40,388 nucleotides of DNA, from contig JASJDX010000008.1 of the NCBI GenBank assembly GCA_030064975.1, forward strand, positions 1 to 40,388. Direction: 5' to 3'. The position numbers were made by a program, and so were the translations under genes. The notes beneath the pieces are model-generated. The model was not told where the DNA came from and did not search any database. It saw nothing but the letters and a program-made list of their open reading frames with translations. Every line of letters starts with the position of its first letter. Within the stretch, counting starts at the first letter, position 1. The stretch is from Pleurocapsa sp. MO_192.B19. GTDB lineage: Bacteria; Cyanobacteriota; Cyanobacteriia; Cyanobacteriales; Xenococcaceae. Below are positions 1,691-5,742 of the stretch, one piece after another.

Positions 1691-2995
1691 ATGGAACTAC
1701 CTCTGGGGAAAATCTTAGATCGCAGATATCGACTGCTCAAGGTTTTGGGAGAAGGAGGTTTCGGCAAAACATTCTTGGCTCAAGATACTAAACGCCCAGG
1801 TAATCCTATTTGTGTAGTAAAGCAACTAAAGACTAATTTCTCTACACCAGAAGTATTTGCCAAAGCACAAGAATTATTTAATCGTGAAGCTGAAACTTTA
1901 GAAAATTTAGGCAAGCATCCTAATATTCCGACTTTATTAGCTTATTTTGCTGAAGAAGAGCGTTTTTATCTGGTTCAAGAATATATTAGTGGTCATACTC
2001 TCAATACAGAACTAATTTCTCAACAGCCATTACCAGAAGTCAAAGTAACAGATATTCTACAACAACTATTAGTAATACTTCAGTTTGTTCATAGCAAAAA
2101 TGTTATCCATCGAGATATTAAACCTGAAAATATTATTATTAGAGAAGAAGATAATCGACTAATTTTGATTGATTTTGGAGCAGTTAAAAAAGTTACCGCA
2201 TCTCCACAACAACAAACGATTATTGGTACTCCTCAATATGTACCAGAAGAACAATTACGCGGACAACCAACATTGAGTAGCGATCTTTATGCAGTTGGGA
2301 TTATTGCCCTACAAGCTTTAACAGGAATTACACCAGATTATAATATTAATTGGCAGGAAATATTAAGCCATAATAATTTAAGTGTTAACGATTGCCTGAG
2401 GGATTTTTTGCTAAAAATGTCTGCTCAAGATGCTCGTCAGCGTTATCAATCTGCTACAGAAGCTCTTCAAGTATTAAATAATATCTTAAACCCAAAAGCT
2501 GAAGCCACCTTAACTGAAGCCACCTTGATTGCTCCCGCCAAAACTCCAAAAACAGCAAATATCATCTTAAAAGTATCAGCACTTGTTTCTGGTTTATTTG
2601 CTATGGCAACTATATATCTTTTATTTAATAAACCTAATCTAGAACAGCAGTCATTGTCACAACTAAAGTTAGATAACAAGTTAAGAGAAAGTCTATTAGA
2701 TCACAATGATATGTGCGACAATTTTATGGAACAAGTATATTGCGAAGAATATATTTTTTCAGGAGAAAGAGGACAAACAATAACTATTGAAATGAATAGT
2801 AAAGAATTTGATCCCTATTTAGTTATACGCCAACCGGATGGTAATAAATTAGCTATCAATAATGATATATCTCCTCAAGATTGGAACTCTAGAGTTATGG
2901 TGACATTGCCTCAAAATGGTAAATACAAGGCGATCGCTAGAACCTCTACTGTTGGAGAATCAGGAACATACACGATCAGAGCAAAGATTAAGTAA
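1691..2995 (+). CDS. Serine/threonine protein kinase with TM segment and C-terminal PPC-like extracellular domain
   Basis: LGEGGFGKTFLA glycine loop, VIHRDIKPENI catalytic loop, DFGAVK; TM around VSALVSGLFAMATIYLLF; C-term YIFSGERGQTITIEM...FDPYLVIRQPDGNKLAINND typical of bacterial PPC domains. Confidence 0.9.
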   Translation: MELPLGKILDRRYRLLKVLGEGGFGKTFLAQDTKRPGNPICVVKQLKTNFSTPEVFAKAQELFNREAETLENLGKHPNIPTLLAYFAEEERFYLVQEYISGHTLNTELISQQPLPEVKVTDILQQLLVILQFVHSKNVIHRDIKPENIIIREEDNRLILIDFGAVKKVTASPQQQTIIGTPQYVPEEQLRGQPTLSSDLYAVGIIALQALTGITPDYNINWQEILSHNNLSVNDCLRDFLLKMSAQDARQRYQSATEALQVLNNILNPKAEATLTEATLIAPAKTPKTANIILKVSALVSGLFAMATIYLLFNKPNLEQQSLSQLKLDNKLRESLLDHNDMCDNFMEQVYCEEYIFSGERGQTITIEMNSKEFDPYLVIRQPDGNKLAINNDISPQDWNSRVMVTLPQNGKYKAIARTSTVGESGTYTIRAKIK

Positions 2996-3081
2996 TGCTA
3001 AATTGACCGTTAATCATTGGTTGTTAGACAAATATAAATTGTATTATTTGTGCAATATTAATAAATGCATATATTCAACTA

Positions 3082-3749
3082 ATGATCGGGTCAAAATTAG
3101 TAACACTCATTATTTCTGCGATCGCAATTGCCACAGCTAGTTTTGGTTGTACCAACAAAGAAGTAAAATCATCTTCTGCTGCGAATCAAGAAAAGCCTAT
3201 AAGAACAGTTAAATTTGTCTGCAATAAGCTGATCCACATTAAACTTGCATAATTTCAGCTCTGAAACCCTTGAGGGGCTTGAGGTGACTATAAAAAATCA
3301 ATGTTGATTAGCTTAAAACCTACGATAAAAATAGTGACCAATACGTTTATTCAACTGTTGCCTGGAATCCAGACAATAAAAAGCCGATAGTTGTCTGGAA
3401 ACGAGAAGATTTTAGTGGCAACAACTATCCTCCTCAAGCCCGTTGTGAAGAAGTATCTCCTCGATTTCAACAAGCTTATGACAGTGGTAGTTTTAAATAC
3501 ATTACCCATGGGGAAATGAATGGTCAGCCCGTAATCTGTACCTCTTCAGCAGTAGGTGGCGACTGTCAGACACTATTAATTACTTTGAAACACGAAGATA
3601 ATGCCGAAAGAACTCTAGAACAATTGAGCGACATTTTATTGGGTTATGCCAGTTCAGCATTAGAACAAAGTTCTGGAGATATATCTTATTCAGAAGATAA
3701 CAAGCTCTATGTAGAAGTAGATGTAGAAGATTTTCTTAGTCAACCTTAG
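3082..3749 (+). pseudogene. COP23-domain lipoprotein gene, interrupted by a MITE-like insertion
   Basis: 5' part MIGSKLVTLIISAIAIATASFGCTNKEVKSSSAANQEKPIRTVKFVCN; after deleting 3227-3315 the frame continues KTYDKNSDQYVYSTVAWNPDNKKPIVVWKREDFSGNNYPPQARCEEVSPRFQQAYDSGSFKYITHGEMNGQPVICTS... to 3749. Confidence 0.85.
3227..3313. mobile_element. MITE-like element, 87 bp, with TA target duplication
   Basis: TIRs agctgatccacatt (3227-3240) / aatgttgattagct (3300-3313), 12/14 matching; flanked by TA (3225-3226, 3314-3315); excision plus one TA restores the COP23 frame exactly. Confidence 0.85.
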
Positions 3750-3764
3750 TGAATCCATTAATAA

Positions 3765-4100
3765 TCACTAAAGCGATCGATCGCTCTCAATCCCAACAGT
3801 GATCGTCTTCATTATTCTCATGGCTCTTTATTGATGGAATCATATCGTCTTTCCGAAGCTATTGAAGCTTATACTAAAGCGATCGCTATTAAACCCAATG
3901 CTTTCTATTATCTGAGTCGAAGCACTGCTGTTCTAATGAAGGGTGATTTACAGCAAGGAAAAGCAGATATTAAGCGTGCCAGAGAAATCAATCCTGAGTT
4001 CATGAGCCAAGAATCTTGGTCTGACTTATTAGAAAACTTTCCTGACATGGAGAACTCCCCTGAATTAGAAAAATTGCTGCAAAATTTTTCCGACTTATAG
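3765..4100 (+). pseudogene. TPR-repeat protein remnant (no proper start; 5' truncated)
   Basis: Open frame from 3765 reads SLKRSIALNPNSDRLHYSHGSLLMESYRLSEAIEAYTKAIAIKPNAFYYLSRSTAVLMKGDLQQGKADIKRAREINPE: TPR-like repeat begins upstream of any ATG. Confidence 0.55.
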
Positions 4101-4254
4101 AACTTGCCAGACTTGGAAAACATTGAGTAACAGATAGTTGAATAAGACAATTCATATTACAATACCCAATAATTCATTGGGCTTTCAAGGATTAAAACTG
4201 CTCATATAATCTCAGCCAATTAGCAATATCAACATATTATTAAGATATTTCAAT

Positions 4255-5742
4255 ATGATTTCTGTATCTAAGCTTACTACCGCATTACTTACTGCTTTCT
4301 TATTGGTCAGTTGCGATAGTCTCCCTCAAGTAAATATCACCTTTGAAGACAAGACAAGTGAGGAGAAAGCTCAATTAGAATCAACTACCACAGAATCTTC
4401 ACCAAAATCAGAATTAGAAGAACCAGAAGAAATAGGACAAGGATATCAAAGCACGGACGAATCCGAGACGATAACTCAATCTGCTTCAGAGCTAACACCA
4501 CAACAACTCAATCGACGTGCTAAATATATTACTGTCCGTATTGATGGTGCCAGTTCTGGTTCGGGAGTAATTATTAACGAATCAAATAATACCTATACCG
4601 TTCTTACTAACTGGCACGTAGTTAAAGAACCAGGAGAATACACTATTCAAACTACTGATGGCAGACAGCATCAGGTTGACTATCAACAAGTACAAGAGTT
4701 GTCGGGAGTTGATTTAGCTTTGGTTCAGTTCAGTAGTGAACAAAATTACCAAACTGCTGAAGTCGGTGATTCTGATTTTCTCAGTGAAGGGCAAACGGTT
4801 CATTTAGCTGGTTATCCTGGGGTGAAAACGAACAACGATCGCGTTTATCGTTTTTATAATCTTAGTGTTGTCAGTTTGTTGGATACTCCTACAAATCAAG
4901 GTTATTCGGTTTTATATGAAGGAGAAACCGTAGCAGGAATGAGCGGTAGTCCTCTAATAGACGAAAATGGTCAACTAGTCGGCATACATGGCATTTATCG
5001 TGTAGATGACCCCAAAATCAGGAAGGGTTCTAGTTATGCAATTCCGATTAATACTTACAAAGAATTAGCTATAGACAACCAAGAATCAACAGAAACAGTA
5101 GCCTTAAAACCAGATTCTGATACTACCAAGAAAGATATTAAGTCTAAGTCTACTGATAATTCACCAGAAGAAGTTGCTATTGAAAAGTCTCCACCCACGC
5201 CAACAGAAGATTCTCCAGCTTCCGACATCATCACTCAATCTTCAGAAACAGGCATAGACTATGCCAGGGTAGAGAAATTACTAGCCGCAGGAGATTGGCA
5301 AGAAGCACATCAAGAAACCAGAGATTTAATGATTCAAGCTGGTGGCAGAGAAGAAGATGGTTATTTAAATAAAGAGAGCGTTAATAATTTTCCTTGTTCA
5401 GATCTCAATGCTATAGATCAATTGTGGTCAAAATATAGCGATGGTAAGTTTGGCTTTAATGCCCAACGACAAATCTGGGAAAACATGGGAGGAAGTGCGT
5501 CTTCGGGAAATAGTGCGTTAGAGAAATTTTCGATACAGGCAGGCTGGAAAAAAGAAAACTCCAGTCAAAATGAATTTTCCGAATTTTCCGAATTAACTTT
5601 CTCTCTTCAAACTGCGGTTGCAGGACACCTACCTGCATTAAGATTTATTCCTAATATCTATGATGCTGATAGACCAGGTAGTACTGCATATACTCTATTA
5701 CCTCAATTTATGTATCGCGTCAGGACTTGTAGTAAGCAGTAA
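4255..5742 (+). CDS. Lipoprotein trypsin-like serine protease fused to C-terminal GUN4 domain
   Basis: Lipobox LLVSC; protease SGSGVIINE...LTNWHVV, GVDLALVQF, GMSGSPLID (H, D, S triad); C-term YARVEKLLAAGDWQEAHQETRDLMIQAGGREEDGYLNKESVNNFPCSDLNAIDQLWSKYSDGKFGFNAQRQIW...LTFSLQTAVAGHLP matches GUN4. Confidence 0.88.
   Translation: MISVSKLTTALLTAFLLVSCDSLPQVNITFEDKTSEEKAQLESTTTESSPKSELEEPEEIGQGYQSTDESETITQSASELTPQQLNRRAKYITVRIDGASSGSGVIINESNNTYTVLTNWHVVKEPGEYTIQTTDGRQHQVDYQQVQELSGVDLALVQFSSEQNYQTAEVGDSDFLSEGQTVHLAGYPGVKTNNDRVYRFYNLSVVSLLDTPTNQGYSVLYEGETVAGMSGSPLIDENGQLVGIHGIYRVDDPKIRKGSSYAIPINTYKELAIDNQESTETVALKPDSDTTKKDIKSKSTDNSPEEVAIEKSPPTPTEDSPASDIITQSSETGIDYARVEKLLAAGDWQEAHQETRDLMIQAGGREEDGYLNKESVNNFPCSDLNAIDQLWSKYSDGKFGFNAQRQIWENMGGSASSGNSALEKFSIQAGWKKENSSQNEFSEFSELTFSLQTAVAGHLPALRFIPNIYDADRPGSTAYTLLPQFMYRVRTCSKQ

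Follow-up and report, generated by a model that had tools for sequence, protein, structure and literature searches.

Bacterial MITEs range in size from 50 to 500 bp (PMC10969869). In cyanobacteria, Nezha (Zhou, Tran and Xu 2008, doi 10.1016/j.bbrc.2007.11.038) is a MITE proposed to be moved by ISNpu3-like elements (cited in PMC3049150). By this description it is like the MITE studied here, i.e. small, non-autonomous and cyanobacterial, with an IS carrying similar ends as the proposed mover. RUP of Streptococcus pneumoniae is a 107-bp MITE whose ends resemble the IS630-family element IS630-Spn1 (PMC3049150); by description the two are alike in their IS630-like ends, but the host differs. The IS630/Tc1-mariner element ISY100 (ISTcSa) of Synechocystis shares the TA target duplication, imperfect terminal inverted repeats (TIRs) and a DDE transposase with N-terminal helix-turn-helix (HTH) domains (PMC2170065). 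However, ISY100 is autonomous and has 24-bp TIRs, and the full-length partner described below is another IS630-family element. In Anabaena sp. 90, 147 MITEs of 77-541 bp have been described, 15 of them inside disrupted ORFs (PMC3542288), an outcome that the present case shares. No IS with ends matching these MITEs was found in the Anabaena genome, and they are classed as type II (PMC3542288).

That MITEs interrupt cyanobacterial genes is already established, and the event described here is an ordinary one that leaves the general understanding unchanged. No published description of the present MITE family was found in the open-licence literature. What the locus offers is a clean, base-exact case in which a cyanobacterial gene is inactivated by a MITE and both the empty site and a full-length IS with matching ends are identified. 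It is of use in annotating Xenococcaceae genomes, where such elements recur, and in calling the split gene a pseudogene.

The window is a stretch of 40,388 nucleotides of contig JASJDX010000008.1 from Pleurocapsa sp. MO_192.B19. A preliminary description, made from its letters, had placed an 87-bp MITE-like element with a TA on both sides at 3225-3315, and these coordinates are exact, Table 1. Our reading, which we hold with a probability of about 96%, is that 3227-3313 is a MITE of the IS630/Tc1-mariner kind, trans-mobilised into a TA of a COP23-family gene, which it would have turned into a pseudogene. The element contains neither a transposase gene nor an ORF that spans it. Its 14-bp TIRs had been called near-perfect; inverted repeats are indeed present and are conserved across the element family, but with 12 of 14 positions matching the wording was slightly generous. 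In the whole window, this is the only TA-flanked element of 60-130 bp with TIRs matching at 12 or more of 14 positions. One such pair was also obtained in 3 of 20 first-order random sequences of the window's length, so the TIRs alone are weak evidence. The case for the element rests instead on its copies and on the empty site, i.e. on comparison.

Table 1. Positions in the window of the MITE and of the COP23-family gene that it splits. G010 is a genome of the same genus, L044 its orthologue of the split gene, C235 another contig of the window's own genome and L181 a full-length IS630-family element of the same family of bacteria.
Feature	Position	Strand	Basis
COP23-family gene, 5' piece	3082..3224	+	Lipoprotein-like signal sequence ...SFGC; orthologue L044 in G010
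TA target dinucleotide, left copy	3225..3226	.	Sequence; single TA at the G010 empty site
MITE, 87 bp, without own ORF	3227..3313	+	97% own-genome copy C235:6393-6483; family copies; matches to L181 IS630 ends
MITE orientation	3227..3313		+ strand starts with the equivalent of the full-length element's transposase-3' end
Left terminal inverted repeat AGCTGATCCACATT	3227..3240	+	12/14 against right repeat; conserved in family copies
In-frame TAA from the element, closing the 5' COP23 piece after 56 codons	3250..3252	+	Translation
Right terminal inverted repeat AGCTAATCAACATT (read on -)	3300..3313	-	12/14 against left repeat
TA target dinucleotide, right copy	3314..3315	.	Sequence; G010 empty site
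COP23-family gene, 3' piece	3316..3749	+	ORF list: only the 77-aa ORF 3516-3749 called

The preliminary description had proposed a search for further TA-flanked copies, and such copies exist. By DNA search the own genome (606 contigs, 82% complete) contains three. The second, on the other strand of a different contig (C235:6393-6483), is 97% identical across all 91 bases, both TAs included, and the sequences around it show no relation to those around the window copy. The third is a diverged copy of 91 bases (C425:12506). Together with the copies in related genomes, the 97% copy bears out the element as described. Among 100 genomes searched, matches were found in the own genome and seven others, all in the window's own family, and the 91-bp element is absent from all 73 sampled genomes of other families of the same order. 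Plasmid records gave no match to the element.

Across the GTDB species genomes, exact matches to the 30-base left end were confined to Xenococcaceae (Xenococcus, Hyella patelloides LEGE 07179 and further members); Xenococcus and Hyella belong to this family, as the kinship given with the matches also indicates. When up to three mismatches were allowed, 42 left ends were found in 9 of 27 Xenococcaceae genomes, and none with a reversed control pattern. These genomes hold about 40 related copies. With both ends paired, the elements measure 82-135 bp, mostly 91-92 or 119-127 bp, and nearly all copies with both ends found are flanked by TA on both sides. For the other two own-genome copies, searches with their flanks turned up no usable orthologous empty site.

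In the C235 region (L002:1501-1591 and about 1793-3046), the MITE copy is located a short distance upstream of an isocitrate lyase/PEP mutase-like gene, with a TnpB-like ORF on the opposite side; both gene calls were made by eye, without a profile. A 108-bp copy in another genome (G025:C216:5531-5638, L015/L028) carries a 17-bp tandem duplication of the subterminal GAGTTTTTATAGTCAAA and has perfect 16-base ends, TA included. Apart from the MITEs, further own-genome matches to the 16-base pattern are unrelated sequence. A candidate second genic insertion (L175) is located at the extreme 5' edge of an ORF and is not claimed.

The nearest orthologue of the split gene is intact (L044, in G010), with 91% amino acid identity over 192 residues. 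A first search of the genome contigs with the repaired protein gave no match; a six-frame protein search did find matches. In the DNA alignment, G010 reads TTTGCAG-TA-AAACC where the window reads TCTGCAA-TA-[87 bp]-TA-AAACC. The flanks of the empty site are 86% and 94% identical to those in the window, and G010 has one TA, with nothing else missing. Therefore the insertion duplicated the TA and added 89 nt, as the preliminary description had proposed, and the intact orthologue does not carry these 89 nt as coding sequence. Insertion at TA with duplication of the TA, seen here from the single TA of the empty site and in line with the TA at both ends of nearly all copies, is a character of IS630/Tc1-mariner-type elements.

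The frame that starts at the ATG at 3082 enters the element and is closed by its TAA, which gives a 56-aa product with little beyond the signal sequence, and the 3' piece is open up to the stop at 3749. Rejoined at one TA, the flanks form a continuous COP23 protein of 192 aa, for which G010 holds the natural counterpart. The assignment to the COP23 family stands: against PF14218 (cut-off 27 bits), the G010 orthologue scores 125.5 bits and covers 137 of 138 positions, and the 77-aa ORF of the 3' piece by itself reaches 46.3 bits. It is also true that this fragment is all that ORF calling sees of the gene. Neither half has a further stop or shift besides the insertion, and most differences between the 3' half and G010 are silent, with 23 in synonymous codons against 5 in nonsynonymous ones; both observations fit a recent insertion. 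We infer that the split gene has lost its function. Other COP23-family genes are present in the own genome, e.g. on contigs C3 and C399, so its loss may be tolerable.

Several contigs from relatives carry the same terminal sequence at their ends and, next to it, the apparent end of a transposase gene, and these led to a full-length IS630-family element in a family member (L181, G021:C351). It is 1,185 bp long and TA-flanked (1,189 bp including both TAs), and contains an intact ORF of 371 aa with DDE_3 (PF13358, 122.9 bits) and HTH domains. The two ends of this element are not identical to each other. The MITE ends match them in corresponding polarity: of 30 positions, the left end shares 23-24 with the transposase-3' end. 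The right end matches the 5' end at 21 of 30 positions in the window copy and at 23 of 30 in the 92-bp subfamily. The polarity preference of the window copy is slight (23 vs 22 on the left, 21 vs 20 on the right); a clear one is seen in the right end of the 92-bp subfamily alone (23 vs 18). The family thus holds an autonomous partner whose ends match and which encodes a DDE_3 transposase, and the IS630-type origin first proposed from the TA duplication is borne out. The interior of the MITE is, by eye, not evidently shared with this IS, so that by the terms of PMC10969869 the MITE appears nearer to type II, which shares the ends only. The transposase of this IS or of a close relative would be the one that moves the MITE.

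An intact IS with such ends (AGCTGATCC/AGCTGATCA) was not found in the own genome (G000, 82% complete). Among its IS relatives, a broken copy (C291) and a fragment (C102) come nearest; their ends, AGCTGTTGTGCATTTAAA, differ and match the window MITE ends at 14-18 of 30 positions. A sibling IS630 group (L123, L202, L203, L210), with ends close to AGCTGTTATGCATTTAAA, occurs in the own genome, where it is broken, and in relatives; its transposase is 57-62% identical to that of the partner. An IS630 transposase adjoining a MITE end in another genome (G012:C53) was considered as a partner and rejected, as its own ends, TAGT.ATTTCAA, are in our reading those of a different IS inside a MITE remnant. 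This decayed element with other ends (L127:1331-2350) is apparently nested in a remnant of the MITE family.

According to the proposed mechanism, the MITE would hold only the terminal sequences recognised by an IS630-family transposase, and a transposase supplied in trans would have taken it from another site into the TA of the COP23-family gene. Insertion would have duplicated the TA and added 89 nt, and the resulting frame shift and stop would leave a pseudogene, i.e. a stump of 56 aa and a remainder that is either unexpressed or truncated. The preliminary description had also stated that excision restores the exact frame. This holds for the allele before insertion, which is in frame in G010, and since the element with one TA makes up 89 nt and both COP23 halves are without further stops or shifts, one could imagine the insertion as a reversible on/off switch of the gene. 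However, in ISY100 the 3' ends are cut precisely at their termini and the 5' ends 2 nt further in, and donors that have been re-ligated contain a TATATA footprint (PMC2170065). By analogy, transposase-driven excision would be expected to leave about +4 nt here, as a TA+2 nt+TA junction; the gene would stay broken and most likely not regain its frame. The intact frame is a property of the pre-insertion (ancestral) allele and not a predicted molecular event of excision, and a recent insertion explains the lack of further decay equally well. We regard such a switch as very improbable, and give equally little credence to the broader idea that the insertion is kept as a reversible or regulatory switch or that the 56-aa stump, signal sequence included, remains in use.

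Slightly less probable still are two readings that do without a transposase-driven insertion into the gene. The 89 nt could be an assembly error or chimera, given a fragmented and probably metagenome-derived contig set and the tendency of repeats to break assemblies. Against this, both junctions are base-exact with a TA duplication, the 97% copy has other flanks, and independent genomes, among them that of the isolate Hyella patelloides LEGE 07179, show this structure as well. Just as little weight falls on the inverted repeat being a REP/attenuator-type element or a structural RNA element with some other mode of spread. Folded as single-stranded DNA, the ends of the element form a hairpin that is only weakly better than shuffles (z -1.6), which would suit such an element, but Rfam gave no match for it, and neither the TA duplication seen via the empty site nor a full-length IS630 element with matching ends agrees with that origin. 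A MITE inserted by an IS630-family transposase remains by far the best explanation.

In the window (1691-5742), the split COP23 gene stands in a row with a serine/threonine kinase gene before it and a trypsin-like/GUN4 gene after it. Upstream of the COP23 homologue in L044, L046 and L058 there is likewise a kinase motif, and downstream of it a GxSGG protease motif; most other COP23 homologues examined have a protease motif nearby.
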